Source of the DNA: an uncultured Halocynthiibacter sp.
GTDB taxonomy: Bacteria > Pseudomonadota > Alphaproteobacteria > Rhodobacterales > Rhodobacteraceae
Direction: 5' to 3'
Assembly (NCBI GenBank): GCA_947503035.1
Contig: CANNCD010000003.1
Location: 186,001-250,000 of the forward strand
DNA length: 64,000 nucleotides
Part shown: positions 3,416 to 41,432 of the stretch, piece by piece
Layout of the letters: each line of letters opens with the position of its first letter
Numbering within the stretch: the stretch's first letter is position 1
Made by a program: the position numbers and the translations under genes
The notes under the pieces: generated by a model
Told to the model about the DNA's origin: nothing
The model's database searches: none
Seen by the model: only the letters and a program-made list of their open reading frames with translations

Positions 3416-4354
3416 ATGGCCAAGAAGCAAAAGACTATTATCACCTGTGCGATCACGGGCGCGATCCATACGCCGACCATGTCGGATAGCCTGCCGTACA
3501 CCTATGACGACATCGCGCAACAAGCACTTGATGCGGCCGAAGCCGGCGCATCGATCCTGCACCTGCATGCCCGCGACAACGAAACCGGCGCGCCATCGGT
3601 CGACACCAAAGATTTCGCGCCATTCTTGCCGCGGATCAAACAGGCGACTGATGCGGTTGTGAACATCTCAACGGGTGGTTCGCTTACTCTGTCGATTCAG
3701 GATCGCATCAATCCGGCCAAGACCTTTTCGCCCGAGATGTGTTCCATGAACATGGGGTCGATGAATTTCTCGTTCCATCCTTTGGCCAATCGCTACAAGG
3801 ATGACGATTGGAAATTCGACTGGGAAAAGGACTATGTCGCCAATTCCGATGGCAACATTTTCCGCAATACGTTCCGTGATATCAAAGAAGCCGCAGACAC
3901 ATTGGCGCCGCATGACATCAAATTCGAACATGAATGTTATGACGTCGGGCATCTGTATAATCTGAAATTCTGTATGGATATCGGCCTGTTCAAGGCGCCG
4001 ATCTTTATCCAGTTCATTTTTGGTATTCTGGGTGGCGTTGGCCCCGAAATCGAAAACCTAGTCTTTATGAAGCAAACCGCGGACCGTCTGTTCGGCGATG
4101 ATTATCGTTGGTCTGTTTTGGGCGCGGGTGGATCACAAATGACGCTGGGCACAACCGCCAGCCAAATGGGCGGCAACGTGCGTGTGGGTCTTGAGGATAG
4201 TCTCTTTATTTCCCGCGGCAAGCTTGCCGAAAGCAATGCCCAACAGGTCGCCAAGATCCGCCGTATTGTCGAAGATCTGGGCTGCGAGGTCGCAACGCCA
4301 GACGAGGCCCGTGAGATCCTTGACCTGAAGGGCGGAGATCGCGTCGCCTTCTAG
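3416..4354 (+). CDS. Beta-keto acid cleavage enzyme (BKACE, DUF849 family)
   Basis: A 312-residue TIM-barrel-type protein of the BKACE family, whose members condense a beta-keto acid with acetyl-CoA to give acetoacetate and a new CoA ester, using a divalent metal. Seen in the sequence: the N-terminal IITCAITGAIHTP start, the metal-binding histidine pair in ILHLHARD (about H49 and H51), the downstream NISTGGS segment and FEHECYD. Length fits the family. It follows livM by three bases, so it is co-transcribed with the Liv importer. Characterised BKACEs act on 3-keto-5-aminohexanoate (lysine fermentation) or dehydrocarnitine, but neither carnitine dehydrogenase nor lysine-fermentation genes are in view, so the substrate is open. 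Confidence 0.88.
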   Translation: MAKKQKTIITCAITGAIHTPTMSDSLPYTYDDIAQQALDAAEAGASILHLHARDNETGAPSVDTKDFAPFLPRIKQATDAVVNISTGGSLTLSIQDRINPAKTFSPEMCSMNMGSMNFSFHPLANRYKDDDWKFDWEKDYVANSDGNIFRNTFRDIKEAADTLAPHDIKFEHECYDVGHLYNLKFCMDIGLFKAPIFIQFIFGILGGVGPEIENLVFMKQTADRLFGDDYRWSVLGAGGSQMTLGTTASQMGGNVRVGLEDSLFISRGKLAESNAQQVAKIRRIVEDLGCEVATPDEAREILDLKGGDRVAF

Positions 4355-4442: not shown

Positions 4443-5270
4443 CTAGGTGGTCAAAACCTCGGCGTGGAATTTGATGTGATCGCGCATGAAGGTCGAGATG
4501 AAAAAGTAGCTGTGGTCATAGCCGTCTTGCATGCGGAATGTTCCGGCCTGCCGTTTGGTCGCCATGGCCTGCGAAAGGGTTTCGGGTCGCAGCAGATCGA
4601 GGAAGTTGTCAGATGTGCCTTGGTCGATCAGAACTGGATTTGGGTGGCCTTTTTCAGCCATCAAAAGGGACGCGTCGTGGGGCGTCCATTGTGTCTCGTC
4701 CGCGCCAAGATAGGCCGTGAATTGTTTACGACCCCAATCTGACACCGTTGGATTGGCGATCGGGGCAAAGGCAGATACGGATTTGAACACATCAGGCATG
4801 GTCATCGCAATCGTCAGCGCGCCGTGCCCGCCCATCGAGTGTCCGGTGATGGCTTGGCGATCACGATCAAGCGGGAGCTGTTCAAAGACCAAATCGGGCA
4901 ATTCCGACGTGATGTAATCCCACATTTGGAAATGGGACCAAGGCGCCTGTGTGGCGTTCACATAGAAGCCAGCCCCCTGCCCCAGATCATACGCGTCGTC
5001 GTTGGCGACATCATCGCCCCGCGGCGAAGTGTCTGGGAAAATGACGGCAACACCGAATTCGGCGGCATGGGCCTGTGCGCCGGCCTTGGTCATTGCGTTT
5101 TCATGGGTGCAGGTCAGGCCCGACAGGAACCAAACCACCGGCACCTTGCCGTGTTGTGCCTGAGGCGGCAGGTACACGGCAAAGGTCATGTCGCATTTGG
5201 TGGTCTTGGCGGTGTGGGAATAGACCCCCTGCACACCGCCAAAGCATTTGTTTTCCGACAGAGTTTCCAT
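4443..5270 (-). CDS. fghA: S-formylglutathione hydrolase
   Basis: Cytoplasmic serine esterase of 275 residues that splits S-formylglutathione into formate and glutathione, the second step of glutathione-dependent formaldehyde oxidation. The nucleophile elbow GHSMGG places the catalytic Ser at about residue 145. The family features VVWFLSGLTCTHEN and FPDTSPRGDD are present, and the C-terminal part contains DGYDHSYFFI with the catalytic His. Its start is three bases after the stop of the formaldehyde-oxidising dehydrogenase gene, so the two consecutive enzymes are translated from one transcript. Confidence 0.95.
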   Translation of the reverse strand: METLSENKCFGGVQGVYSHTAKTTKCDMTFAVYLPPQAQHGKVPVVWFLSGLTCTHENAMTKAGAQAHAAEFGVAVIFPDTSPRGDDVANDDAYDLGQGAGFYVNATQAPWSHFQMWDYITSELPDLVFEQLPLDRDRQAITGHSMGGHGALTIAMTMPDVFKSVSAFAPIANPTVSDWGRKQFTAYLGADETQWTPHDASLLMAEKGHPNPVLIDQGTSDNFLDLLRPETLSQAMATKRQAGTFRMQDGYDHSYFFISTFMRDHIKFHAEVLTT

Positions 5271-5273
5271 CGA

Positions 5274-6386
5274 TTAGAATTCCACAACAGCGCGGATGGA
5301 TTTGCCTTCGTGCATCAAATCAAACCCTTCATTGATCTGATCCAAGGTAAGCTTATGGGTGATCATCGGGTCGATTTCGATCTTGCCGCCCATGTACCAG
5401 TCAACGATCTTGGGCACATCTGTGCGCCCCTTTGCGCCGCCAAAGGCCGTGCCGCGCCAAACGCGCCCTGTGACCAATTGGAACGGACGCGTGGAAATTT
5501 CCGCACCCGCTGGCGCCACGCCGATCACGATGCTTTCGCCCCACCCTTTGTGCGCGGCCTCAAGCGCCTGACGCATCACAGTTGTGTTGCCGGTCGCATC
5601 AAAGGTGTAGTCGGCACCGCCCCCCGTGAGTTCCACAAGGTGTTCAACCAGATCGCCTTCGACCTTGGTCGGGTTCACAAAATCGGTCATGCCGAAATAG
5701 CGGCTCATTTCTTCTTTGTTGTCATTGAGATCAACCCCAACGATCTGATCCGCACCCGCCATCCGAAGCCCTTGGATCACGTTAAGGCCGATGCCGCCAA
5801 GACCAAAGACCACACAACGCGCGCCGATCTCGACCTTGGCCGTATTGATCACCGCGCCGATACCTGTGGTGACGCCGCAGCCAATATAGCAGATCTTATC
5901 AAACGGCGCGTCTTTACGCACTTTCGCCAAGGCGATTTCCGGCACAACAGTGTGGTTCGCAAAGGTAGAACAGCCCATATAGTGATAGATCGGCGTGCCA
6001 TCGAGCATGGAGAATCGTGTCGTGCCATCCGGCATCAAACCCTTGCCCTGCGTGCCACGAATGGCCTGACACAGGTTGGTTTTCCCCGAAAGACAATACT
6101 CACACTCACGGCATTCCGGGGTGTAAAGCGGGATCACGTGGTCGCCAACCTCAAGGGTCGTTACACCTTCGCCCACTTCCAACACGACGCCCGCGCCTTC
6201 GTGGCCCAAAATGGTCGGGAAAATACCTTCGGGATCCGCACCAGAGCGCGTGAATTCGTCAGTGTGACACAGACCCGTCGCTTTGATTTCGATCAAAACC
6301 TCACCGGCACGAGGACCTTCAAGATTGACCTCCATAACCTCAAGGGGCTTTCCCGCCTCAAGGGCGACAGCAGCGCGTGTTCTCAT
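5274..6386 (-). CDS. frmA: S-(hydroxymethyl)glutathione dehydrogenase / class III alcohol dehydrogenase
   Basis: Zinc-dependent NAD dehydrogenase that oxidises S-hydroxymethylglutathione, the spontaneous formaldehyde adduct. The 370-residue protein shows the catalytic zinc ligands in GLCHTDEF (C40) and GHEG (H62), the structural-zinc cysteines of [16 protein letters not shown] (C92, C95, C98, C106), and the nucleotide fold [12 protein letters not shown]. In minus-strand order the start region reads TTAGGAG, eight bases, then ATGATG; translation may begin at the first ATG (6389) or the second (6386, giving [10 protein letters not shown], the usual family start). An in-frame extension to 6455 has no ribosome site and does not fit the family. 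It forms an operon with fghA. In roseobacters the formaldehyde typically comes from methylated compounds. Confidence 0.95.
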
Positions 6387-6739
6387 CATCAGAGCATCTC
6401 CTAACGTCTTGCGTTCATCTTGAGTGTCATCGGCTGATATCAAGACGTCAGCCAAGGTTGATCACATCAAGTAACCATGGATATCGGTCGTGACCACTCT
6501 CAAAAAGACCATCTGAGGATTATTCACGTCATTGTCGTGTTGACGGAACCTAAGACAGTGTCACGAACCGCGGCGAACACGTCGGCACTGTGTCTGTGTG
6601 CTTGTGTTGGCCCAACCCGACGATCTGCGATAATCGCATCAAAGGCAAGCGCCATGACAATGGCGGCGTGACGCCGAACGGGCGCGATACCTACATTGCA
6701 GCAGGACGGTCGGGGCACTCACGCCCGCATCTGCACGTG
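6387..6739. other. Gene-poor stretch upstream of frmA
   Basis: No open frame here has a ribosome site or credible protein. Near the frmA end are two dyads: GGCTGA / TCAGCC with a 10-base spacer at 6432-6453, and TTGAT-CAC-ATCAA at 6458-6470. They lie 45-85 bases upstream of the frmA start, where an operator would be expected. The rest (about 6475-6739) shows no structure I can name and may be decayed coding sequence. Confidence 0.4.
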
Positions 6740-6955
6740 TTATGCTTTGATGTGTAAAACGTGCTTGGCGATTTGATGTCTTTGAAGGTTTTGCTGGGCG
6801 AGATCGGCGTCGGACAGGTCCATAAGAGTCTGAAACAATGCATCTTTGCGGCAAGATTGGTGAAAAACCCCAACCCAGTTTTGCAGTCGCTGCAACAGCG
6901 CCAAGAGCGTGGTTCCGAAGTGAACAGTAGTAGAAGCAGTAGGTGCGTTTGCCAT
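6740..6955 (-). CDS. DUF1127-like small protein
   Basis: A 71-residue protein whose C-terminal half (LMDLSDADLAQQNLQRHQI) resembles the DUF1127 pattern, in which a basic helix is followed by L-(S/T)-D-x-(E/D)-L-x-x-(I/L)-G-(L/I)-x-R-x-x-I. The usual Gly-Leu-x-Arg is changed here to Asn-Leu-Gln-Arg, and the region before it is less arginine-rich than typical. A ribosome site AGGA sits seven bases before the ATG, supporting real translation. DUF1127 proteins are short and abundant in alphaproteobacteria, and some bind RNA or affect phosphate and carbon metabolism; nothing here shows a specific role. It stands alone, on the opposite strand to the following iclR gene. Confidence 0.55.
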   Translation of the reverse strand: MANAPTASTTVHFGTTLLALLQRLQNWVGVFHQSCRKDALFQTLMDLSDADLAQQNLQRHQIAKHVLHIKA

Positions 6956-7133
6956 AAGTATTCCTAAGGGTTGCGTTGTCCTCCGGACCCAGAGCGTAAG
7001 GCCTCGCGGCTGGTTTCACTATGCTTGATATTTCATATCGCCCTTGATCGGGGCGCATGGCTGTGGGGCCGACAATTCTGGCGCTCGATCACGATGCTTG
7101 ACACAACGTGGTAAATAAACGATTATCGATTCG

Positions 7134-7161
7134 AATTCCAATAATGGAATTTATGATTCCA
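7134..7161. promoter_or_regulatory. Three alternating half-sites before iclR (probable operator)
   Basis: Half-sites ATTCCA (7135-7140), TGGAAT (7145-7150) and ATTCCA (7156-7161) alternate in orientation with 4- and 5-base gaps, so adjacent pairs form perfect dyads. The array ends 14 bases before the iclR start. IclR-family proteins such as PcaU and PobR are known to bind three repeated half-sites near their own genes, so this is the probable autoregulatory operator and the control point of the whole sulfatase block. Confidence 0.6.
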
Positions 7162-7175
7162 AATATGAAATATCT

Positions 7176-7985
7176 ATGAACCCAACAGAACGCACACTCC
7201 AAGTCCTAGAATATGTTATGGCGGCCGGACCAGGGCCGATCAAGCAAACCGACATTGCGCGGCATTGCGGTCTTTCGCCCGCCACGTTGAACCGGATTGT
7301 GAAGACGCTGTCTGACATGGGGTATCTGTTTCGCACCAGCGAAAAATACTGCGTGCGCAACTTTCGTTTGGAGCGCAACGTTCCGATGTCGCAGGCCTAC
7401 TTGGCCAAACTTGATGAAACGATGCGCGATCTGTCCAAACAGCTGGGTGTGTCCACCGAGGTCATCGTCGTCGCGGGGCACGAATTGTTGTGGCATTCAA
7501 AAACCGACTACCCCGATCCGAATGTTGTCATCCGCGCCAACGTCGGATTTCGCCGCTCGCTTTATGAACTGGATGTTCTGTCGCAACTCTACCTGAGCCG
7601 CCTGGACTGGGCCGATGTTCAGGCGCAGTTCTTTACCGAGGGTTTCTTTGGCACGCTGCGCGAGGCGGGCCGCGACACGCCGTGGATGTCCGAGACAAAT
7701 GTGCGCGAAACACTGGACGGCATGCGCAACGACGTCTTTGCCGCCGACCCCGAAGGGAACCACGTGGGCATTCGCCGCTGTGCCACTGTGGTCGAGGACC
7801 CCGACGGAAAATTCCTGCACTTGTTGGCCTTGGCGGAACCCGCCGATCAGCCAAAGGGCAGCATAGAAGAGTACAAAGAGGCCCTGCTTGCGGTCCGCGC
7901 CGAACTTGCGGCGCTGACACATGAGGAAAACGCAGCAAACCGTCTTGTACCCAAATATCACACCGCGCCGCTGCAGGGGGGCTAG
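7176..7985 (+). CDS. IclR-family transcriptional regulator
   Basis: 269 residues. An N-terminal winged helix-turn-helix spans about residues 1-65 (TERTLQVLEYV, TDIARHCGLSPATLNRIVKTLSDMGYL), followed by an IclR effector-binding domain that is more diverged than usual. The ATG has no clear Shine-Dalgarno sequence. It lies directly downstream of a three-half-site operator and upstream, in the same direction, of the TTT transporter and sulfatase genes with no terminator in between, so it is probably the local regulator, with the imported organic anion or a breakdown product as effector. The N-terminal helix-turn-helix is clear; the effector is unknown. Confidence 0.88.
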   Translation: MNPTERTLQVLEYVMAAGPGPIKQTDIARHCGLSPATLNRIVKTLSDMGYLFRTSEKYCVRNFRLERNVPMSQAYLAKLDETMRDLSKQLGVSTEVIVVAGHELLWHSKTDYPDPNVVIRANVGFRRSLYELDVLSQLYLSRLDWADVQAQFFTEGFFGTLREAGRDTPWMSETNVRETLDGMRNDVFAADPEGNHVGIRRCATVVEDPDGKFLHLLALAEPADQPKGSIEEYKEALLAVRAELAALTHEENAANRLVPKYHTAPLQGG

Positions 7986-8019
7986 CAGAGCCGCGGGATC
8001 AAATAATCTGGGAGGATTT

Positions 8020-8067
8020 ATGAGAGATTATAGAGCGTTACACGCGCAAGGCTTGGGTAAACCATGA
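8020..8067 (+). CDS. Possible 15-residue leader peptide before tctB
   Basis: An ATG at 8020 preceded by a strong ribosome site (GGGAGG at 8010-8015) opens a 15-codon frame (MRDYRALHAQGLGKP) whose TGA overlaps the tctB ATG as ATGA. tctB itself has no good ribosome site of its own, so translation of the leader probably feeds ribosomes to tctB. Either it is a coupling leader or it is a chance frame next to the true ribosome site. Confidence 0.4.
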   Translation: MRDYRALHAQGLGKP

Positions 8068-8531
8068 CCTGGCGCAACATGAACAGCATCATGTCCATCG
8101 TATTGATCATGGGCGCGATCGGCTATGCGTTGAACCTGAATCATAGCGCATCTCAGGCGATTTTCTTTGCCTCATCCGGCGTGGGTCCGACCTATTTTCC
8201 CAACGTCCTTGCGGGGTTGGTGGTGATCCTAAGCATCGTGACCTTGGTGAAAAACCTGCGCGACACAAGCGATGGCAACACCGCCAAGATCACTACGCCG
8301 AACGCGGGCTATATCCTTGCGACCTTCGCCCTTGTGGTGGCGTTTTTGCTCAGCTGGCAGTTCCTCGGGTTCTTCTATGTGAACGTGTTCATCCTGCTGA
8401 CGGCCCTCATGACGCTTTATCGGATTGAATTTGGCTTCAAGAATAGCCTGACCGTCGCGCTGATCACCGCCGTCGCGACGACCGGCTTTCTCTATGTATT
8501 GTTCGGGCAAATCCTTGCCCTGTCGTTTTAA
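8064..8531 (+). CDS. tctB: Tripartite tricarboxylate transporter, small permease TctB
   Basis: 155 residues with four hydrophobic segments (about 8-25, 40-62, 80-105 and 125-150), the length and layout of the small TTT membrane subunit. The segment SSGVGPTYFPNVLAGLVVIL matches the P-x-x-(F/Y)-P motif after the first membrane span of TctB proteins. It lies between iclR and tctA in one direction. Function is support of TctA in secondary, ion-driven uptake of an organic anion delivered by TctC. Confidence 0.88.
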   Translation: MTWRNMNSIMSIVLIMGAIGYALNLNHSASQAIFFASSGVGPTYFPNVLAGLVVILSIVTLVKNLRDTSDGNTAKITTPNAGYILATFALVVAFLLSWQFLGFFYVNVFILLTALMTLYRIEFGFKNSLTVALITAVATTGFLYVLFGQILALSF

Positions 8532-8542
8532 GGGGAACGGAT

Positions 8543-10030
8543 ATGGATATTTTCATCAATGATCTCGGCAATCTGTTCACCCTGACCAACATCCTGTGCA
8601 TCCTTTTGGGCACGGTTGTGGGGATGGTTTTTGGCGCCCTGCCCGGTCTAGGCACCGTGATTGCGGTTGCTTTGCTCCTTCCTGTGACCTTCACGCTTCC
8701 ACCGCTTGCGGGCATTTTGATGTTGCTTGCGACCTATCAGGCGGGTGAATACGGCGGGTCCATTTCGGCGATTTTGCTGGGGGTCCCTGGTACACCACAG
8801 GCCGCCGCAACCGTGATCGATGGCCACCCAATGGCCGTCAATGACTCCCCCGGTAAGGCGCTGAGCTATTCGCTTTTGTCTTCATCCATCGGTGGGATTT
8901 TCGGCGGTTTTGTTCTGATCTTTATCTCTGTGCCCTTGGCCAAATTCGCGCTGAATTTCGGCAGCCCCGAATATTTCTTGCTGGGTGTGATTGGTCTGAT
9001 GGCTGTGGGATTGCTCAGCGGAACAGACAAGATCAAAAGCTCGATCTCGGTTCTGCTGGGTCTGATCGCCGGCACCGTTGGTGTCGATACGCTAACCGGT
9101 GTGAACCGCGCGACCTTTAACCAGCCCGAACTCATGGACGGCATCAACCTTGTGGCCTTCCTTGTGGGGATGTTCGCGATCTCTGAGCTGTTCATGATGA
9201 TCAGCAAAGGGTTGAACACCTCCTATTCTGGCGACGGGCAGAACCTGAAAACGGGCCTGACCGCAAAAGAGGTCAAAGGCATCGTCAAGCCAACCTTGAT
9301 CGGTTCTTTGATTGGGGCGGGCACCGGTATTCTTCCGGGGATCGGCGGCGGCGCATCCTGTTGGTTCGCCTATGCCGTGGTCAGCAAAACCTCCAAAAAT
9401 CCCGAGGCCTTTGGCAAAGGCAGCCCAGAAGGCATCGCCGCGCCAGAGTCGTCCAACAACGCCTCGGCGGGCGGTGCATTGGTGCCCTTCTTGGCGCTTG
9501 GCATCCCTGGTTCGGCCGCGATTGCGATCATCATGGGCGCCTTCATCATGCACGGCATTCAACCAGGCCCGAATGTGTTCACCGCGGAACGCGATCTGGT
9601 TTACGGCATCTTCTATGGCTTCATCCTGACCACCGTCGCGATGTATCTTGTGGGCCGCCTTCTGACCCCTGCGTTTTCACGGGTCCTTGTGGTGCCGAAT
9701 TCCTTCTTGGTGTCGATTGTTTTCGTGCTGTGCTTGATCGGCATCTACGCCTCCAAAAGCGCGTTTTTCGACCTCTGGTTGGCCCTTGGGATTGGCGTTG
9801 TGTTCTATGTGCTCAAACGGCTCAACTATTCGGTTTCATCTGTGATCATCGCCTATGTTCTGGCGCCGATCATCGAGGAAAACTTCCGCCGCTCGCTCAC
9901 GCTGGCGAACGGGAACTATGATGTGTTCTTTTCCAGCATCTATTCGATTGTGCTTGTGCTCATGATCGTTGCCGCACTTGGAGGCAGCATCTTTGCCGAC
10001 ATCAAAAAGAGGAGAACAACGACGGGATAA
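8543..10030 (+). CDS. tctA: Tripartite tricarboxylate transporter, large permease TctA
   Basis: Inner-membrane transport subunit of 495 residues with about 11-12 hydrophobic segments. It carries the TctA landmarks GMVFGALPGLGTVIAVALLL, YGGSISAILLGVPGTPQA with the following DGHPMA, and GAGTGILPGIGGG in the repeat half. Start ATG has AGGGGA six bases upstream. It sits between tctB and the binding-protein gene. TTT systems are known for citrate, tartrate, terephthalate and other carboxylates; the neighbouring sulfatases suggest a sulfated carboxylate or similar anion here, which is inference. Confidence 0.94.
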   Translation: MDIFINDLGNLFTLTNILCILLGTVVGMVFGALPGLGTVIAVALLLPVTFTLPPLAGILMLLATYQAGEYGGSISAILLGVPGTPQAAATVIDGHPMAVNDSPGKALSYSLLSSSIGGIFGGFVLIFISVPLAKFALNFGSPEYFLLGVIGLMAVGLLSGTDKIKSSISVLLGLIAGTVGVDTLTGVNRATFNQPELMDGINLVAFLVGMFAISELFMMISKGLNTSYSGDGQNLKTGLTAKEVKGIVKPTLIGSLIGAGTGILPGIGGGASCWFAYAVVSKTSKNPEAFGKGSPEGIAAPESSNNASAGGALVPFLALGIPGSAAIAIIMGAFIMHGIQPGPNVFTAERDLVYGIFYGFILTTVAMYLVGRLLTPAFSRVLVVPNSFLVSIVFVLCLIGIYASKSAFFDLWLALGIGVVFYVLKRLNYSVSSVIIAYVLAPIIEENFRRSLTLANGNYDVFFSSIYSIVLVLMIVAALGGSIFADIKKRRTTTG

Positions 10031-32790: not shown

Positions 32791-34758
32791 GTGACGCTTG
32801 ACGACAATCAATTTGCAACAGGGCCAGCTGAAAAGCGGACCAAGGCCCCCAAGATAACCGCTGACGCCTATGCGTCGATGTATGCCCAGTCCGTTTCAAA
32901 TCCGGACAAGTTCTGGGAGGAACATGGACAGCGCATCGATTGGATGAAGCCGTTTACCAAGGTGAAAAACACATCCTTTGAGCCCGGCAACATTGACATT
33001 CGTTGGTTCGAAGACGGCACATTGAACGCCTCTGCAAACTGCATTGATCGTCATCTTGAGACCCGCGGCGACCAGACCGCGATCATCTGGGAACCTGACG
33101 ATACAAGCAAGCAAGCCCCGCTGCATATTACCTATAATGACCTGCACCGGTCCGTCAGCAAAATGGCAAACATCCTTAAGGACCTTGGTGTGCGCAAAGG
33201 CGACCGCGTTGTCATTTATCTTCCTATGATCCCCGAGGCCGCCTATGCGATGCTGGCCTGCGCGCGGATCGGCGCGATCCACTCCATCGTTTTCGCTGGA
33301 TTTTCCCCCGATGCCTTGGGCGCGCGGATCAACGGCTGTGACGCGAAGCTTGTGATCACGGCGGACTTTGCCCCACGTGGCGGCCGCGAAACCCCTTTGA
33401 AATCCAACACCGACACCGCGCTCACGCAGTGCAAAGACGAGGTGCAGTGCCTTGTGGTGAAACGCACCGGCGGTGCGACCGCATGGTCAGACCGCGACCA
33501 CGATTACAACGCGCTGGCGATCACCGCCTCTGCCGATTGCCCACCCGAAGAGATGAACGCCGAGGACCCGCTGTTTGTTCTCTATACCTCTGGTTCCACC
33601 GGCCAGCCCAAAGGCGTTGTGCACACGACCGGCGGCTACATGGTTTATGCCTCTATGACGCATGAATACGTGTTCGATTACAATGATGGCGATGTGTTCT
33701 GGTGTACCGCCGACGTGGGTTGGGTCACAGGCCACAGCTATATCGTCTATGGCCCACTGGCCAATGGCGCGACGACCATCATGTTCGAAGGCGTACCAAC
33801 ATATCCAGACGCAGGCCGTTTCTGGGAAGTCTGCGAAAAGCACAAGGTCAATCAATTCTACACCGCCCCAACCGCGATCCGCGCCTTGATGGGGGCCGGC
33901 AACGAATGGGTCGAGAAATACGATCTGTCTGATCTGCGTATCTTGGGCTCCGTTGGCGAACCGATCAATCCAGAGGCATGGAATTGGTACAATGACGTTG
34001 TCGGCAAGGGCCGCTGCCCCATCGTCGACACCTTCTGGCAGACCGAAACCGGCGGGCACATGTTGACCCCTCTTCCGGGGGCAACCGACCTTAAACCGGG
34101 GTCCGCACAGCAGCCCTTCTTTGGCGTGCAGCCTGTCGTTCTTGAACCCACCAGCGGTGAGATCATCGAAGGCAATGGCGTCGATGGCGTTCTCTGTATG
34201 AAAGACAGCTGGCCCGGTCAGATGCGCACGGTTTGGGGCGATCATGAACGCTTTGAGAAGACCTATTTCAGCGACTACAAGGGCTACTACTTCTCTGGTG
34301 ATGGCTGTCGCCGCGACGAAGATGGTGATTACTGGATCACGGGCCGCGTCGATGACGTGATCAACGTTTCCGGTCACCGCATGGGCACCGCCGAGGTCGA
34401 AAGCGCGCTTGTCGCCCATGCCAAAGTGGCCGAAAGCGCCGTGGTCGGGTATCCGCATGACGTTAAGGGGCAAGGGATCTATGCCTATGTGACCTTGATG
34501 AACGGCCAAGAGCCAACCGACGCCCTGCGCAAAGAGCTCGAGACGTGGGTGCGGACCGAGATTGGCCCGATTGCCAAACCGGACCTCATTCAATGGGCAC
34601 CCGGCCTGCCCAAGACCCGTTCGGGCAAGATCATGCGCCGCATTCTGCGCAAGATCGCCGAGGATGATTTTGGTGCGCTTGGGGATACCTCTACGCTTGC
34701 TGATCCATCGGTGGTCGATGATCTGATTGCCAACCGCATGAACAAGGCGGACGCGTAA
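32791..34758 (+). CDS. acs: Acetyl-CoA synthetase (AMP-forming)
   Basis: 655 residues, the normal Acs length. Activates acetate to acetyl-CoA through acetyl-AMP. Seen: the phosphate-binding loop [19 protein letters not shown], the [14 protein letters not shown] and [13 protein letters not shown] signatures, and the C-terminal [16 protein letters not shown] containing the catalytic Lys subject to acetylation. The start is a GTG at 32791 with GGGAG seven bases upstream. It overlaps adk by one base. With the sodium-solute symporter downstream it forms an acetate or short-chain acid uptake and activation locus. Confidence 0.96.
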
Positions 34759-35441
34759 TGGACGGCGCAACAACAACCGCTGCACCCGTCCTGATTTTGC
34801 TTGGCCCCCCTGGGGCAGGCAAAGGGACACAGGCGCGAATGCTCGAAGAGGAATTCGGGCTTGTGCAATTGTCGACCGGTGATCTGCTGCGCCAAGCGGT
34901 GGCGGCAGGGACCGACGCAGGCAAAGCCGCCAAGGCGGTGATGGAGGCCGGCGGTCTGGTAAGCGATGACATCGTGATCGCCATTCTTCGCGACCGTTTG
35001 GCGGAACCAGATTGCGCCAAGGGTGTGATCTTGGACGGTTTTCCACGCACCACTGTGCAGGCAGACGCCCTTGGCGCGCTGCTCCAAGACCGTGGTCAAT
35101 CCGTCAACACCGCCATCAGCATGGATGTCGACGATGCGGCGATGGTCGAACGGATTTCCGGTCGTTTCACCTGTGGCACCTGCGGCGAAGGCTATCACGA
35201 CACATTCAAACCCACGGCGACGGCGGGCACCTGTGACAAATGCGGGTCCAGCGACATGAAACGCCGTGCGGATGACAATGCGGCAACGGTTGGTCAGCGG
35301 CTCGAGGCGTATCACGCCCAGACCGCGCCGCTCATTGCCTATTACGAACGCTCCGGTGCGCTGTCGCGCATCGATGCAATGGGAGCGATTGAGGAGATCG
35401 CTTCTAATCTGAGCCACTTGGTGACCAAGGTCACCGCATAA
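34758..35441 (+). CDS. adk: Adenylate kinase with zinc-binding LID
   Basis: 227 residues. P-loop GPPGAGKGTQ near the N-terminus, the AMP-binding LSTGDLLRQAV and ILDGFPRT motifs, and a long-form LID in which four cysteines (C-x2-C-x16-C-x2-C, CGTCGEGYHD to CDKC) bind structural zinc. It converts AMP plus ATP to two ADP. Overlapping the acs stop (TAATG), it would recycle the AMP made by Acs. Roseobacters usually have another adk in the ribosomal protein operon, so this may be a second copy; that cannot be seen here. Confidence 0.94.
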   Translation: MDGATTTAAPVLILLGPPGAGKGTQARMLEEEFGLVQLSTGDLLRQAVAAGTDAGKAAKAVMEAGGLVSDDIVIAILRDRLAEPDCAKGVILDGFPRTTVQADALGALLQDRGQSVNTAISMDVDDAAMVERISGRFTCGTCGEGYHDTFKPTATAGTCDKCGSSDMKRRADDNAATVGQRLEAYHAQTAPLIAYYERSGALSRIDAMGAIEEIASNLSHLVTKVTA

Positions 35442-35763: not shown

Positions 35764-37551
35764 ATGGATCAATTTACACTCAACCTGCTGTTTGTAGGCG
35801 CGTCCTTTGCGCTCTATATCGGCATCGCGATCTGGGCCCGTGCGGGTTCGACCGCTGAATTCTACGCTGCGGGTCGCGGCGTTCACCCCATCACCAACGG
35901 TATGGCAACGGCGGCGGACTGGATGTCTGCGGCGTCCTTCATCTCGATGGCGGGCTTGATTGCCTTTACCGGCTATGACAACTCTTCGTTCTTGATGGGT
36001 TGGACCGGCGGTTATGTTCTTCTGGCTCTTTTGCTTGCGCCTTACCTTCGTAAGTTCGGCAAGTTCACTGTGTCCGAGTTCATCGGCGATCGCTTCTATT
36101 CACCGACTGCACGTCTGGTGGCTGTGATCTGTCTTTTGGTGGCGTCCATTACCTATGTTATCGGTCAGATGCAGGGTGTTGGTATCGCCTTTGGTCGCTT
36201 CCTTGAAATCGACGCCTTCTGGGGTCTTCTTCTTGGCTCTTGTGTGGTGTTCGCCTACGCCGTTTTCGGTGGTATGAAAGGTGTGACATACACCCAAGTT
36301 GCGCAGTACTGCGTGTTGATCACCGCTTACACCATCCCTGCGGTCTTCATCTCGTTGCAGCTAACAGGCAACCCGATCCCAGCGCTTGGTCTCTTTGGTG
36401 AGCACACAGCATCTGGTGAATCTCTGCTTGTAAAGCTTGACCAAATCGTAACCGATCTTGGCTTTAAAGAGTACACAGCCGCGCACGGTTCCACCATCAA
36501 CATGGTTCTGTTCACACTGTCCCTCATGATTGGTACAGCTGGCCTGCCCCACGTCATCATGCGCTTCTTTACTGTTCCAAAAGTATCTGACGCACGTTGG
36601 TCTGCGGGTTGGACACTTGTTTTCATCGCGCTTCTTTACCTAACAGCCCCTGCGGTTGGTGCGATGGCGCGTCTGAACATCTCTGATCTGATGTGGCCAA
36701 ACGGCACGAATGCCGAAGCGGTAAGCGTTGAGCAAATCGAAAACGAGCCTGAGTACGCTTGGATGCAAACGTGGCAGAAAACCGGTCTTCTTGACTGGGA
36801 AGACAAGAACGGCGACGGCAAGATCCAGTACTACAACGACCAAAATGCTGATCTACAAGCCAAAGCCGAAGCAAACGGCTGGGAAGGTAACGAACTGACA
36901 AAGTTCAACCGTGACATCTTGGTTCTTGCGAACCCTGAAATCGCGAACCTTCCAGGTTGGGTGATCGGTCTGGTTGCTGCGGGCGGTCTTGCGGCTGCTC
37001 TATCGACTGCCGCTGGTCTTTTGCTTGCGATTTCGTCTGCTGTGTCTCACGATCTTCTAAAAGGTCAACTGACACCAAACATGTCTGAAAAGAACGAGTT
37101 GCTCGCAGCGCGTCTTTCCATGGCAGCAGCGATTGTCGTGGCGGTTCTGTTGGGTCTGAACCCACCAGGCTTTGCGGCGCAAACCGTGGCCTTGGCCTTT
37201 GGTCTTGCGGCGGCTTCGATCTTCCCAGCGCTGATGATGGGTATCTTCTCGACACGCATCAACAACTCGGGCGCGGTTGCAGGTATGTTGGCAGGTCTAA
37301 CAGTGACATTGCTCTACATCTTCTTGCACAAGGGTTGGTTCTTCATTCCAGACACGAACAGCTTCACAGATGCTGATCCTCTGCTTGGTCCGATTAAATC
37401 CACATCCTTTGGCGCAATCGGTGCAATGGTGAACTTTATCGTGGCCTATGTTGTGTCCAACATGACAAAGGAAACACCGCAAGAGATCAAAGACTTGGTC
37501 CAAAGCGTTCGTATCCCACGTGGCGCCGGCGCAGCCGTCGACGATCACTAA
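35764..37551 (+). CDS. Sodium-solute symporter, acetate/short-chain acid type (VC_2705 subfamily)
   Basis: 595 residues with about 13 membrane spans of the SSS (LeuT-like) fold. N-terminal TAEFYAAGRGVHPITNGMATAADWMSAASF is the signature of ActP-like carriers, and GLAAALSTAAGLLLAISSAVSHDL is the family's sodium-site region. A soluble insertion of about 90 residues lies near residues 315-400, also typical of this subfamily. The codon choice is strikingly different from flanking genes (GGT, CTT, ACA, CCA), consistent with strong expression. With DUF4212, acs and adk it suggests import plus activation of acetate or a related acid. Confidence 0.94.
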   Translation: MDQFTLNLLFVGASFALYIGIAIWARAGSTAEFYAAGRGVHPITNGMATAADWMSAASFISMAGLIAFTGYDNSSFLMGWTGGYVLLALLLAPYLRKFGKFTVSEFIGDRFYSPTARLVAVICLLVASITYVIGQMQGVGIAFGRFLEIDAFWGLLLGSCVVFAYAVFGGMKGVTYTQVAQYCVLITAYTIPAVFISLQLTGNPIPALGLFGEHTASGESLLVKLDQIVTDLGFKEYTAAHGSTINMVLFTLSLMIGTAGLPHVIMRFFTVPKVSDARWSAGWTLVFIALLYLTAPAVGAMARLNISDLMWPNGTNAEAVSVEQIENEPEYAWMQTWQKTGLLDWEDKNGDGKIQYYNDQNADLQAKAEANGWEGNELTKFNRDILVLANPEIANLPGWVIGLVAAGGLAAALSTAAGLLLAISSAVSHDLLKGQLTPNMSEKNELLAARLSMAAAIVVAVLLGLNPPGFAAQTVALAFGLAAASIFPALMMGIFSTRINNSGAVAGMLAGLTVTLLYIFLHKGWFFIPDTNSFTDADPLLGPIKSTSFGAIGAMVNFIVAYVVSNMTKETPQEIKDLVQSVRIPRGAGAAVDDH

Positions 37552-37591: not shown

Positions 37592-37659
37592 TACCCTAGA
37601 CTTACGAAATTTCATCCTGTTTTGCCCATAAACAGGACATGTGCCAAAGGGGCCAAGTG

Positions 37660-39480
37660 ATGTCTCTTCCTCTTAATCTGACCCAGTTCATCGCATCTGT
37701 GCATCCCTACGACAGTTTGCCGGAACATGATTTGACGGCACTGGCACAGGCCTGTCAGGCGCTCGAATTCCCTGCCGAGGATGTTGTTTATTCCGTTGGG
37801 GACACGGCAACCCATCTTTATATCATCGCCGCTGGCGAGGTTGAGATCACCGACGAGATCGGCGTTCAGCTCTCGCTTCTTGGTCCGCGCAATTCCTTTG
37901 GCGAACGCGCCTTGCTGCGCGACGAAACAACAACCCGCACCGCCAAAGCCGTGTCCAAAGTGACCTTGATCGCGGTTCCCAGAATTCAGTTCTACGCGCT
38001 GATTAAGGCGCATAGCTCGGTCGCGAAATTCTTTGATCGCCGCCGCCCGACCGCACCGGCGCAAACGGATCCGACAACCACCCCCGTTGAACGTTGGATG
38101 ACCACGCCCGCCGTCACTTGCACCTCAGATACGTCAATCCGCGACGCCGCGCGTCTTATGCATGATCGCCGGATCTCAACGATTTGCATCACAGATGGCG
38201 CGGACTTCAAAGGTCTCGTGACCCTGCGTGATATGAACAGCCGCGTGATTGTCGATGGCAAAGACACCGCGGACCAGATCGCGGATATCATGACCACCGA
38301 CGTCCTGACGCTCTCGCCGAGTGAGCTTATCACCGACGCCTTGCATTTGATGGTCGAACAGGCCGTGGGCAGCATTCCGATTTTGGACAACGGCGCACTT
38401 GTTGGCATCATCACCAAGACCGATCTGACGCGGGCGCTTGATGTGACCTCGGCCGATCTGGTGGGACGTATTGCCAAGGCCGACAGCGCCGAACAGATGT
38501 CCCATGTCACCGACGAAATCCCGCAACTACTGGTTCAGCTGGTGGATGCGGGCAACCGGCACGAGGTCGTCACGCGGCTGATCACCGATATCGCCGACAC
38601 CGCGACACGTCGTTTGCTGGCGTTGGCCGAGGAAACGCTGGGCAAACCGCCCGTGCCCTATGTCTGGCTGGCCTGCGGCAGTCAGGGTCGGCAGGAACAA
38701 ACCGGCGTCTCGGATCAAGACAATTGCCTGATCCTGTCGGACGCGGCGAAACCGACCGATATGCCTTACTTTGCTTCCCTCGCCGCATTTGTCTGCGATG
38801 GGCTTGCCACCTGTGGTTATGTCTATTGCCCCGGCAATATGATGGCGACCAACCCGCGTTGGTGTCAGCCCCTGTCCGTGTGGCGGGATTATTTCCGTGA
38901 CTGGATCGCAACCCCCGACCACGAGGCCCAGATGCTTGCCTCGGTTATGTTTGACCTGCGGGCCATCGGTGGCGACGAGACCCTGTTCGAAGGGCTGCAC
39001 CAAGACACCCTCGCCGCCGCGTCAAAGAACTCGATTTTTGTGGCGCATATGATTTCGAATTCCCTGAAACATCACCCGCCTCTTGGGATGCTGCGCGGTT
39101 TGGCGACGATCCGTTCGGGGGATCACCGCAACCAGCTGGACCTTAAACACAACGGGGTTGTGCCCGTTGTTGATCTGGGCCGCATCTATGCGCTTGAGGG
39201 GAAATTGACACAGGTGTCGACTCGAGCGCGCCTTGAGGGCGCCGTAAAACGTCGGTTGCTGTCAAAATCCGGCGGAGGCGATCTGTTGAATGCCTATGAC
39301 CTTATCGCGATGACGCGACTGGAACATCAGGCCGCACGGATAAAGCGTGGCCAGCTTCCGGACAACTACCTTGATCCATCCGATCTCTCAGACTTTGAGC
39401 GCAGCCATCTGCGCGACGCATTTGTGGTTGTCAAAACCATGCAATCATCCGCCGGTTCCGGCAAAGGCACGTTAGGATAG
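37660..39480 (+). CDS. Cyclic-nucleotide-binding / CBS / DUF294 nucleotidyltransferase-like protein
   Basis: 606 residues. Order: a cyclic-nucleotide-binding-like domain (about 1-130), two CBS domains (about 145-265), a DUF294 nucleotidyltransferase-like domain with GSQGRQEQTGVSDQDN (about 325-345), and a DUF294_C domain to the end. The motif matches the GlnD-like G-S-x-G-R-x-E-Q-x-x-x-x-D-x-D. Start 37660 has AAAGGGG seven bases upstream and is preferred over 37639. It follows the symporter and precedes a small membrane protein and an exonuclease. DUF294 proteins next to acetate or SSS transporters are common; a role in adenine-nucleotide or second-messenger sensing of uptake is plausible, not shown. 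Confidence 0.9.
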   Translation: MSLPLNLTQFIASVHPYDSLPEHDLTALAQACQALEFPAEDVVYSVGDTATHLYIIAAGEVEITDEIGVQLSLLGPRNSFGERALLRDETTTRTAKAVSKVTLIAVPRIQFYALIKAHSSVAKFFDRRRPTAPAQTDPTTTPVERWMTTPAVTCTSDTSIRDAARLMHDRRISTICITDGADFKGLVTLRDMNSRVIVDGKDTADQIADIMTTDVLTLSPSELITDALHLMVEQAVGSIPILDNGALVGIITKTDLTRALDVTSADLVGRIAKADSAEQMSHVTDEIPQLLVQLVDAGNRHEVVTRLITDIADTATRRLLALAEETLGKPPVPYVWLACGSQGRQEQTGVSDQDNCLILSDAAKPTDMPYFASLAAFVCDGLATCGYVYCPGNMMATNPRWCQPLSVWRDYFRDWIATPDHEAQMLASVMFDLRAIGGDETLFEGLHQDTLAAASKNSIFVAHMISNSLKHHPPLGMLRGLATIRSGDHRNQLDLKHNGVVPVVDLGRIYALEGKLTQVSTRARLEGAVKRRLLSKSGGGDLLNAYDLIAMTRLEHQAARIKRGQLPDNYLDPSDLSDFERSHLRDAFVVVKTMQSSAGSGKGTLG

Positions 39481-39483
39481 CCC

Positions 39484-40002
39484 ATGTTTATTGAACTTAT
39501 CGCAACCGTTTTTGCAGGGATCGCCTGTGCCGGCGTGGTCATGGTGCTTAACATCACGTTTGGCCGCCGGTTGCCCAAATGGATCACGCCCATTGCCGCG
39601 GGTGCAGGCATGATCGCCATGACCATTTCCAACGAATACACATGGTTTAATCGCACCGCCGAGAGCCTGCCCGAAGGTGTCGAAATCGCATCCACCGTCG
39701 AAGAGCAAAGCTGGGGCCGTCCATGGACTCAGATCGCGCCCTATACCAAACGGTTTGTGGCGGTCGACGTCGCAACCATGCGCAAAAACGCGAACATCCC
39801 GTCCCAGCGCATTACCGATCTCTATTTCTTTGGCCGCTGGTCCCCCGTGAGCCAAGCGCCGATGCTTTTTGATTGTGATGCGGCGCGTTCGGCGATCCTG
39901 ATCGATGGTGCGGTGTTTGGTGCGGACGGGACCGTATCCAATGCCGATTGGCAACAAATGCCCACAGAAGATCCCATTCTTGCAATGGTTTGTAAGGCCT
40001 AG
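39484..40002 (+). CDS. Conserved hypothetical membrane-anchored protein
   Basis: 172 residues starting three bases after the DUF294 gene stop. One or two N-terminal hydrophobic segments (about 3-23 and 34-50, FIELIATVFAGIACAGVVMV and ITPIAAGAGMIAMTI) anchor a mainly hydrophilic C-terminal domain rich in aromatic residues (RITDLYFFGRWSP), with two cysteines (C131 and C170). I do not recognise the family. Tight spacing with both neighbours says it belongs to the symporter-DUF294-exonuclease set, perhaps as an envelope-facing partner. Confidence 0.82.
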   Translation: MFIELIATVFAGIACAGVVMVLNITFGRRLPKWITPIAAGAGMIAMTISNEYTWFNRTAESLPEGVEIASTVEEQSWGRPWTQIAPYTKRFVAVDVATMRKNANIPSQRITDLYFFGRWSPVSQAPMLFDCDAARSAILIDGAVFGADGTVSNADWQQMPTEDPILAMVCKA

Positions 40003-40004
40003 CC

Positions 40005-41432
40005 ATGCTCGCGCGCCTGTCCCTTCGGCTTCGGATATTTCTGTTCTTTGGCTTTATGGCTGCGGGGGCGGTTGCCCTTGCGGGGGTGGCTTTGGCCTTT
40101 GGGTGGTCGCGGGCCGAACCCGCGATTTCGTCGGCGCCATTCACGACGGCATTCTTGATATTCGCCTTTCTCAACGTCGGGTTTCTGACGGCGATCTGGT
40201 TTCTGTTCGACGAACATGTCGCCAAGCCCATCGACGCACTTTCGACCAATCTGCTGCTACGTGCCCAAGCAGGGGTCGACGCGGAAATCACCGACGACAC
40301 CGCGCGGTATCTGGGCGATTTGGCCCCCGCAGCGCGTGCCGTTTCGCAGGCCATGAATGCATCATCAGAGGCCATTCTGTCGAACGCTTCGCCGGAAACC
40401 GAGCGGCTGCGCGCGGAACGGCATCGCCTCACGTCCCTGCTAAGTGAAATTCCCATTGCCACCCTTCTGGTCAATGCGATGGGCGAGGTCGTTCTTTATG
40501 ATGCGCAGGCGGCGGATATCCTTGCCCAAATCGCCCCGCCGCGCCTTAAGGCGCCCTTGTCGGAATACTTTGATCCGGCCAGTTTTGAAGAGGCTAAATC
40601 CAAACCTCAGAACAGCACCGATGATTCAGTGTTCGCGCTTATGGATATTCACCACCGCACAACCTTCACAGCGCATTTGAAACCGCTGGGCGACGATGGG
40701 GACATGATCTTTATCGATTTGGAACACCACGAGATCGACGCAGACAATTCCCGCCCACTCGTTTTCGATTTTGATCTGCTTGAAAACCGAGACGAGGCCG
40801 ACATTCACGACACTCCTCTTTCGGAGCTGTCATTGGTGGTCTTTGACACGGAAACCACGGGGCTGTCGGTCGAACATGACGCGATTGTACAGCTTGCCGC
40901 GCTGCGCATCCTGAACGGACGTATCATCGAGGGCGAACACATGGATGCATTCGTCAATCCAAACCGCCCCATTTCAGCGGCCTCGACGCGCATTCATGGG
41001 GTGACGGATGCGCATGTCGCGAATGCACCGCAGATCGCCGAGGTCGGGTTAGAGTTCCATAAGTTCGCCGCCAACGCAGTTTTGGTTGCGCATAATGCGC
41101 CGTTTGATATTGGTTTTTTGCGGCAGCAAGAACAAAAGATCGGAGTGAAATGGGATCATCCTGTGCTTGATACGGTGCTTCTGTCCGCCGTCGTTTTTGG
41201 CACAACGGCCGATCACACGCTTGATGCGCTCTGCGAACGGTTGACCATCGAAATTCCGTCCGAACTCCGCCACACGGCGCTTGGGGACGCAAGGGCAACC
41301 GCCGAAGCCGTCCTGAAACTGCTCCCTCTGTTGCAGGGTAAAGGCATTGCAACCTTTGGGGAACTTCTTCTGGAAACGCGTAAGCATCGACGACTTCTGA
41401 ATGATCTCAACGGTGATCAAGTGCGTGCTTAA
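40005..41432 (+). CDS. Membrane-anchored DnaQ-type 3'-5' exonuclease with sensor-like N-terminus
   Basis: 475 residues. TM1 about 10-31 and TM2 about 46-67, then a HAMP-like linker (DEHVAKPIDALSTNLLLRAQAG), a PAS-like region (about 145-235, IPIATLLVNAMGEVVLYDAQA), and a DEDDh exonuclease from about 278. The exonuclease motifs are intact: FDTETTG, HNAPFDIGF and HTALGDARATAEA. It starts two bases after the previous stop. Exonuclease domains on a histidine-kinase-like frame recur next to DUF294 and SSS genes in proteobacteria; the natural nucleic acid or nucleotide substrate is unknown. It ends the operon, convergent to an araC-type gene. Confidence 0.88.
   Translation: MLARLSLRLRIFLFFGFMAAGAVALAGVALAFGWSRAEPAISSAPFTTAFLIFAFLNVGFLTAIWFLFDEHVAKPIDALSTNLLLRAQAGVDAEITDDTARYLGDLAPAARAVSQAMNASSEAILSNASPETERLRAERHRLTSLLSEIPIATLLVNAMGEVVLYDAQAADILAQIAPPRLKAPLSEYFDPASFEEAKSKPQNSTDDSVFALMDIHHRTTFTAHLKPLGDDGDMIFIDLEHHEIDADNSRPLVFDFDLLENRDEADIHDTPLSELSLVVFDTETTGLSVEHDAIVQLAALRILNGRIIEGEHMDAFVNPNRPISAASTRIHGVTDAHVANAPQIAEVGLEFHKFAANAVLVAHNAPFDIGFLRQQEQKIGVKWDHPVLDTVLLSAVVFGTTADHTLDALCERLTIEIPSELRHTALGDARATAEAVLKLLPLLQGKGIATFGELLLETRKHRRLLNDLNGDQVRA

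Follow-up and report, generated by a model that had tools for sequence, protein, structure and literature searches.

A DUF294 protein and a membrane-anchored sensor-exonuclease as a candidate nucleotide writer/eraser pair beside an acetate/pyruvate uptake cluster

The window analysed here is a stretch of 64,000 nucleotides from an uncultured Halocynthiibacter sp. (contig CANNCD010000003.1, positions 186,001 to 250,000), and the subject is a run of three genes within it that encode a DUF294 protein (gene 1), a 172-amino-acid (aa) membrane protein (gene 2) and a membrane-anchored, sensor-like exonuclease (gene 3), next to an acetate/pyruvate uptake cluster. The DUF294 and exonuclease genes occur together across relatives and are fused in several genomes, and their products very probably form a signal-controlled pair. 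With a probability of roughly 40 %, and with the proposed inputs included, we read the unit as a writer/eraser pair for nucleotides that is under signal control and linked to monocarboxylate (acetate/pyruvate) uptake. The combination of a sensor carrying an exonuclease in place of a kinase with a predicted nucleotidyltransferase, beside genes for acetate import and activation, suggests an unrecognised form of carbon-uptake control.

Pairing of the DUF294 and exonuclease genes

The open reading frame (ORF) list placed the three genes on the + strand with 3 and 2 bases between them, in agreement with the original prediction, which had been made from the sequence alone and had proposed co-occurrence as a check. 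Among 41 genomes (own genome and relatives), 18 had a strong DUF294 match (E <1e-30), and each of these 18 also had an exonuclease match on that contig, no more than 10 kb away. Of the remaining 23 genomes, three had no exonuclease match, and the best match of the others did not exceed 87.2 bits, which is a DnaQ-like score. For 14 of the 18 DUF294 genomes the cluster also contained a TIGR03648 symporter above cut-off, and genome G033 had the symporter with both DUF294 and the exonuclease absent.

In a 299-genome sample of the window's phylum, taken to be Pseudomonadota because L053, the closest named locus, comes from an uncultured Rhodobacteraceae bacterium, DUF294 was present in all 41 genomes whose exonuclease scored at least 260 bits and was counted as kinase-type (the next match reached 199.8) and in 68 of the 258 others (Fisher p 3e-21, uncorrected for relatedness). 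The best nine first-look candidates per genome were scored in this sample, so weaker exonucleases could be missed. In 37 of the 41 kinase-type genomes the two genes lay on one contig within 15 kb; the other four pairs were those of G136 and G188, on separate contigs, that of G116, without a place among the matches listed, and that of G308, which is weighed below. When 61 of the 68 other DUF294 genomes were re-searched, an exonuclease was found 1005–1366 bp downstream on the same strand for at least 62 of the 90 DUF294 copies listed, in at least 46 of the 61 genomes. Fusions of DUF294 and exonuclease into one protein were verified by Pfam in G014 and read from a common open frame in G282, G052, G255, G238 and G335.

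As a separate observation, locus L048 (positions 4506–6770) encodes exonuclease, CBS and DUF294 domains in a single 754-aa protein.

The exonuclease and its membrane chassis

Gene 3 was originally predicted to encode a DnaQ-type exonuclease built on two membrane spans with HAMP-like and PAS-like parts, and the exonuclease and the spans were borne out. Hydrophobic segments were located at about residues 7–35 and 43–69, and RNase_T (PF00929) was matched with E 5.8e-38 and 131.5 bits against a cut-off of 24. The catalytic residues D281, E283, D368, H423 and D428 were invariant in 15/15 aligned homologues and were found at the same positions in 32/32 of a larger set, and a YDFDL linker ahead of the exonuclease domain was conserved. 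By VIA, the DEDDh fold is close to those of a DNA polymerase exonuclease (9qpc, Z 24.9), DnaQ epsilon (2gui, Z 23.2) and RNase T (3ngy, Z 19.9). Gene 3 shares the DEDDh fold and all five residues with DnaQ, PolC, ExoX and RNase T but differs from them in being joined to transmembrane and PAS parts and, in relatives, to a pseudokinase as well.

The PAS-like part was recovered only through longer homologues: Pfam gave no PAS match in the window exonuclease itself, and PAS_4 was above cut-off in the proteins of L036 (1.3e-5), L120 (5.1e-6) and L106 (1.8e-6). The HAMP-like part was not confirmed, with no Pfam match to HAMP in any exonuclease protein scanned (the window protein and longer homologues). 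HATPase_c likewise gave no Pfam match in the window protein.

A role in anti-phage defence was considered and rejected: the neighbourhood is metabolic, and PADLOC gave generic matches, to DEDDh and PDC-S48 on the exonuclease domain and weak ones on the cyclic-nucleotide domain.

The DUF294 protein

The original assignment of gene 1 as a cyclic-nucleotide/CBS/nucleotidyltransferase-like protein was confirmed by Pfam, with cNMP_binding, CBS (two stretches), DUF294 (PF03445; E 1.1e-49, 168.3 bits) and DUF294_C (PF10335; E 2.3e-43, 147.9 bits) all above cut-off. The GlnD-like nucleotidyltransferase motif, of the form GSxxR...DxD, reads GSQGRQEQTGVSDQD, and GSxxR...DQD was kept in 65 of 67 DUF294 copies. 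A Pfam scan of gene 1 gave no HD domain match. GlnD and GlnE modify tyrosines of proteins. DUF294_C has been grouped with GlnD/GlnE-type C-terminal domains and shares a Pfam clan with GlnD_UR_UTase (PMC3710099). Gene 1 differs from these enzymes in having cyclic-nucleotide and CBS inputs and no HD match; removal of the nucleotide would fall to a separate exonuclease. Pflu5625 of P. fluorescens, a CBS/nucleotidyltransferase protein, has been predicted to work by nucleotidylation (PMC5715377).

A degenerate kinase block in long-form relatives

To place the exonuclease among its relatives, 80 named loci, the best 80 of 327 relatives in a public-genome scan, were annotated by profiles. These reach other Proteobacteria, Desulfuromonadales, Nitrospirota, Acidobacteriota and Flavobacteriales, and DUF294 exceeded 190 bits in 63 of them. 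Full-length exonuclease homologues of equal length were found in two of the 41 genomes (49 and 52 % identity), while nine loci (L006–L008 and L010–L015) matched at both ends with a gap, because their proteins are longer (roughly 610–730 aa); shorter variants occurred at L017 (550 aa) and L018 (319 aa). By alignment, the extra block lies between the PAS-like region and the exonuclease. Scored as present where at least 110 residues separate the N-terminal profile from the exonuclease, it was found, at least in part, in 58 of the 80 loci and was absent in 14; the long forms include those of Frigidibacter albus (L064) and Rhodobacter capsulatus (L065). The other eight (L070, L131, L100, L127, L108, L110, L089 and L090) were truncated, frame-shifted or of another class and were set aside.

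In an AlphaFold model of the L064 protein (35 sequences; mean predicted local distance difference test (pLDDT) score 85.3), the block comprises a helical hairpin (residues 248–322) and an ATPase-like sheet (329–463). Foldseek matched the model to the histidine kinases WalK (E 6.2e-16, 472 columns) and VicK (1.8e-13, 403 columns), to ThkA in complex with its receiver (1.6e-9) and to DivL (8.9e-8), indicating a DHp/CA fold in the long relatives from this one model (E 6e-16 to 9e-8). The phospho-acceptor position was assigned by us as three residues before an invariant Arg (R269 of L064), and none of the 35 aligned long relatives had His there: the residues were E (17), D (11), P (2) and one each of I, Q, K, R and M. 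HATPase_c was above cut-off in none of five long relatives scanned (best E 0.15, in one protein) and gave no match at E 0.001 in two more, and the N and G boxes of the long forms were not recognisable by eye. Since the phospho-acceptor His is missing and HATPase_c is at best weak, the block looks like a pseudokinase throughout the aligned set, with the exonuclease at the C-terminus. The original prediction of an exonuclease where a sensor would carry its kinase domain is matched by these relatives, in which a histidine-kinase-like, apparently inactive region stands just ahead of the exonuclease.

As a side observation, the replacement of the phospho-acceptor by Glu or Asp in 28 of the 35 long forms possibly mimics permanent phosphorylation.

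That the block is instead a still-active kinase misjudged by sequence tests, with autophosphorylation regulating the exonuclease, would suit the retained kinase-like fold and the adjacency of a receiver gene described below, but with the acceptor His missing in 35/35, HATPase_c so weak, the N and G boxes unrecognisable and no such region in the window protein, it is very improbable.

Receiver and kinase neighbours and their evolution

A stand-alone receiver gene lies directly upstream of the exonuclease gene in 40 of the 58 long forms, often overlapping it by a few bases, and in none of the 14 short forms. The two receivers scanned matched Pfam Response_reg (6.7e-26 and 1.1e-31). A strict receiver motif was present in 30 of the 40, and the acceptor Asp and the KPF lysine were visible by eye in the remaining ten.

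In 17 of the 80 loci a gene near that of the exonuclease encodes a protein of 874–1000 aa whose N-terminal half is hydrophobic and whose H-box is intact, with motifs resembling the N and G boxes. All six of those scanned contained HisKA and HATPase_c, and one matched SSF; because of these features the proteins are apparently SLC5-type sensor kinases of the CrbS/CbrA class.

The own genome also encodes such a kinase (913 aa; L133, positions 5508–8924, contig C1), with a single-domain receiver just upstream; it is 41–43 % identical to four of the locus kinases and lies on another contig than the exonuclease cluster. Frames of about 900 aa with weak TIGR03648 matches occur in relatives lacking the exonuclease as well.

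A tree built from 81 exonuclease domains shows three changes of the pseudokinase state (the window clade, L063 and L084). In these three independent contrasts, absence of the receiver goes mostly in the same direction as absence of the block; L063 sits on a long, uncertainly placed branch. The window clade has apparently lost the pseudokinase region and its linked receiver; loss is likely rather than gain because the long form is widely spread, the root itself not being inferred.

Related systems in print

The closest published counterpart is in P. putida, where PP_0354 (a CBS-domain protein) and PP_0353 (an RNase_T exonuclease) form an operon and the response regulator ErdR binds the PP_0354 promoter; in P. 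aeruginosa PAO1 the homologues adjoin actP-yjcH (PMC9927547). The window has the same arrangement of a DUF294/CBS gene followed by an RNase_T gene near a sodium/solute symporter (SSS) gene, and the two systems share two enzyme types, one operon and a link to acetate/pyruvate symporters. Compared with PP_0354/PP_0353, the window adds the 172-aa membrane protein, and the membrane sensor chassis of its exonuclease may be a second difference. On pyruvate, P. putida mutants of the exonuclease and of actP-I were impaired and the CBS-protein mutant was not (PMC9927547). In P. aeruginosa, PA3232–PA3235 were about 16-fold up in growth on propionate, and PA3233–PA3235 were 2-fold down after propionate addition (PMC9765439).

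The degenerate kinase block and the stand-alone receiver recall DivL and DivK of Caulobacter: DivL, a histidine kinase without its former activity, reads a phosphorylated stand-alone receiver (PMC4211667), and it is among the Foldseek matches above. In contrast to DivL/DivK, an exonuclease forms the output here, and receiver docking is proposed from gene adjacency in the 40 of 58 long forms. The 874–1000-aa kinases, which lie near a receiver and the exonuclease in the 17 loci, recall the SLC5/STAC kinases CrbS, CbrA and RpuS by their hydrophobic N-terminal half; the published CrbS and RpuS control transcription of acs and mctP, whereas the neighbour here is a single-domain receiver.

The DUF294/exonuclease operon, the acetate/pyruvate symporter link, MxtR/ErdR control and the prediction of nucleotidylation are already in print for Pseudomonas. 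In the titles and abstract openings searched, no published description was found of a pseudokinase chassis bearing an exonuclease, and none of its fusion with DUF294, of a receiver or an SLC5-type kinase as its neighbour, or of the 172-aa protein as a partner; papers naming DUF294 did not have its pairing with an exonuclease as a subject, and none gave a substrate for DUF294 proteins. Sensor transmitters with swapped outputs are a known principle; the exonuclease output and the partnership with DUF294 are not. The original interpretation is sustained in part: a sensor chassis with an exonuclease at the place of the kinase is supported, as is the co-occurrence of the genes with one another and with SSS symporters, and nucleotide-based signalling linked to acetate uptake stays a hypothesis. 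It did not include the pseudokinase block, the receiver and SLC5-type kinase genes, the exonuclease–DUF294 fusions or the published P. putida pair.

Proposed mechanism and alternatives

Under the writer/eraser reading, the GlnD-like DUF294 protein would be the writer, gated by its cyclic-nucleotide and CBS domains and nucleotidylating a target in uptake or activation, most likely a protein. The membrane-anchored DEDDh exonuclease would be the eraser, taking the nucleotide off as a 5'-nucleoside monophosphate (5'-NMP), and the sensor chassis (transmembrane and PAS-like parts and, in relatives, the inactive DHp/ATPase module beside a receiver gene) would time its activity. As a chemical precedent, a DEDD enzyme cleaves the aryl ester p-nitrophenyl thymidine monophosphate (pNP-TMP) (PMC6390093), which may be regarded as an analogue of Tyr-O-NMP. 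Writing and erasing on a protein is offered tentatively, and we hold this chemistry to be rather doubtful.

In the ancestral form, the receiver, once phosphorylated by an SLC5-type kinase, would bind the pseudokinase in the way that DivK~P docks on DivL and would thereby switch the exonuclease. In the window form, the exonuclease would probably be switched through its own PAS and membrane parts, and the 172-aa protein would act as a periplasmic partner. Joined together, these steps would amount to a two-component pathway whose output is nucleotide removal, running from a symporter-type kinase through a receiver to a pseudokinase-exonuclease and opposed by a cyclic-nucleotide- and adenylate-gated DUF294 writer, all acting on monocarboxylate uptake; the window would be a derived form with the kinase input deleted and its own membrane sensor. 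In this complete form the proposal is unlikely.

Direct support was obtained here for the architecture, the active-site residues, the pairing and fusion of the enzymes, the His-less kinase-like region and the receiver and kinase neighbours. We infer the substrates, the modification, the activities and the direction of the reaction, which counts against the writer/eraser reading, and likewise the docking of the receiver, the ancestry of the long form and the role of the 172-aa protein. Several results also weigh against it. With regard to linkage, G308, one of the 41 kinase-type genomes, has its DUF294 gene 850 kb away, and 28 of the 90 listed DUF294 copies had no exonuclease within 2.5 kb among the matches listed. 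With regard to the chassis, the kinase matches of the L064 model have low TM-scores (0.14–0.25 by query length) and large root mean square deviations (rmsd), because several domains were superposed together, and the rows that VIA listed for the whole-chain model were all exonucleases. The window exonuclease itself, aligned to the long relatives, lacks the kinase-like block, and it lacks a linked receiver. With regard to the inputs, 18 of the 58 block-bearing proteins have no receiver directly upstream, the SSF match above Pfam cut-off was confined to one of the six long kinases scanned, and the tree has 13 changes of the receiver state but three of the pseudokinase region. Correlated loss of pseudokinase and receiver was not retained as an argument: the counts of 40/58 against 0/14 come down to three independent events and are not significant. 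In P. putida, neither the PP_0353 nor the PP_0354 mutant was defective on 20 mM acetate, and the authors suggest mRNA decay (PMC9927547).

That suggestion belongs to the best-surviving alternative, in which a signal-controlled, membrane-bound 3'-5' exoribonuclease would trim specific mRNAs of carbon metabolism or transport, with DUF294 tagging RNA 3' ends or regulating the nuclease. The proximity of the DEDDh fold to the polymerase exonuclease, DnaQ epsilon and RNase T would suit such an enzyme, as does the P. putida authors' own speculation. Pfam nevertheless gave no RNA-binding domain in the window proteins or the long relatives scanned, pairing with a GlnD-like transferase would be less direct, and DUF294_C is classified with GlnD/GlnE-type domains (PMC3710099); we consider this explanation fairly unlikely. 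The asymmetry of the P. putida mutants on pyruvate would be expected of a writer/eraser pair in which the target stays modified when the eraser, but not the writer, is lost, and it is compatible with mRNA decay as well.

DUF294 might instead synthesise a short oligonucleotide or dinucleotide messenger that the exonuclease degrades, in the manner of oligoribonuclease on linear dinucleotides. A transferase and a 3'-5' exonuclease sharing an operon and single-chain fusions would fit this arrangement, as would the action of DEDD enzymes on short oligonucleotides (PMC6390093) and the structural match to the Cap18 exonuclease (VIA Z 19.1). The DUF294 motif and DUF294_C point to GlnD/GlnE rather than to messenger synthases, and none of the genes of the cluster was recognised as encoding a receptor; a messenger is quite improbable.

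An ordinary repair or housekeeping exonuclease, membrane-bound by chance and in an incidental neighbourhood, is strongly disfavoured: the top matches of the catalytic domain are replication proofreading enzymes, but a distinct DnaQ-like gene (G000:C2:155571, a 234-aa frame) is present in the same genome, and the linkage with DUF294 and the symporter is strong, with sensor, receiver and kinase neighbours.

If the writer/eraser reading is right, two-component-type sensors would gain an exonuclease among their known outputs, and GlnD-type transferases a separate eraser. Both the P. putida exonuclease, which has a growth phenotype without a mechanism, and DUF294 proteins gain a testable partner from the pairing, from the fusions and from the pseudokinase chassis.

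The 172-aa membrane protein

Gene 2 was originally described as a membrane-anchored protein of no known family, and this description stands: Pfam was empty up to E 1 and NCBIfam was empty as well. A structure model (pLDDT 94.4) predicts helices at residues 2–25 and 34–60 followed by a beta domain, and Cys131 and Cys170 were invariant in 31/31 sequences. The basic loop GRRLPKW between the helices, together with the positive-inside rule, suggests that the C-terminal beta domain is periplasmic. The model had no Foldseek match at E ≤0.001; its best VIA match, Haemophilus protein E (Z 8.2, rmsd 3.7, 93 aligned), is at about the level that the tool gives without a true relative. A homologue was found in 30 of the 80 loci, among them 13 of the 14 short-form loci, and the L033 copy was left out of the alignments. 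Because the exonuclease has merely a short loop between its spans, the 172-aa protein is a candidate periplasmic input subunit for it.

At L096 (Wenzhouxiangella; positions 3516–4034), the homologue comes right after the symporter and more than 3 kb ahead of the exonuclease gene. Because of this position, the 172-aa protein may serve the symporter rather than the exonuclease.

Layout of the locus and neighbouring genes

The coordinates of the genes and features are given in Table 1. The gene order, in which DUF294 is followed by the small membrane protein, at some loci by a receiver, and then by the exonuclease, was kept in 11 of 15 annotated relatives' loci and in many of the 80 loci, which argues that it is not due to chance. 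The closest named locus, L053 from an uncultured Rhodobacteraceae bacterium, has 79 % exonuclease identity. The start of the DUF294 gene was taken as the ATG preceded by AAAGGGG; a second in-frame ATG lies at 37639. The TIGR03647 and TIGR03648 genes adjoin with 4 bases between them, as in a VC_2705-type symporter cluster.

Table 1. Genes and features of the locus, in window coordinates
Feature	Position	Strand	Basis
Acetyl-CoA synthetase gene (acs, TIGR02188), upstream gene of the conserved cluster	32791..34758	+	
Adenylate kinase-like protein gene	34758..35441	+	Named from sequence alone
Small symporter subunit gene, DUF4212/TIGR03647	35499..35759	+	110.3 bits, above cut-off
Sodium/solute symporter gene, VC_2705 family (TIGR03648)	35764..37551	+	815.6 bits, above cut-off
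Predicted 15-bp hairpin between symporter and DUF294 genes, just 3' of the symporter stop codon	37559..37592	+	
DUF294 gene	37660..39480	+	ORF (606 aa), Pfam
172-aa membrane protein gene ('mid')	39484..40002	+	ORF, structure model, alignment
Membrane sensor-exonuclease gene	40005..41432	+	ORF (475 aa), two spans, PAS-like region, DEDDh exonuclease
PAS-like region (about residues 142–238)	40428..40718	+	Alignment to homologues, some with Pfam PAS
DEDDh exonuclease domain (residues 278–435)	40836..41309	+	Pfam, alignment

The acs gene and the adenylate kinase-like gene overlap by 1 base at 34758, and their homologues stand side by side in 11 of 15 relatives' loci. Acs yields adenosine monophosphate (AMP), which adenylate kinase recycles, and for this reason AMP produced at this cluster may be sensed by the DUF294 protein through its CBS domains.

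The hairpin behind the symporter gene, which is predicted to be strong, is probably a partial terminator or an mRNA end that sets the transporter apart from the regulatory genes. A strong predicted stem-loop of other sequence stands in a similar place in most of 13 loci (L053–L057, L059–L062, L064, L066, L067 and L075).

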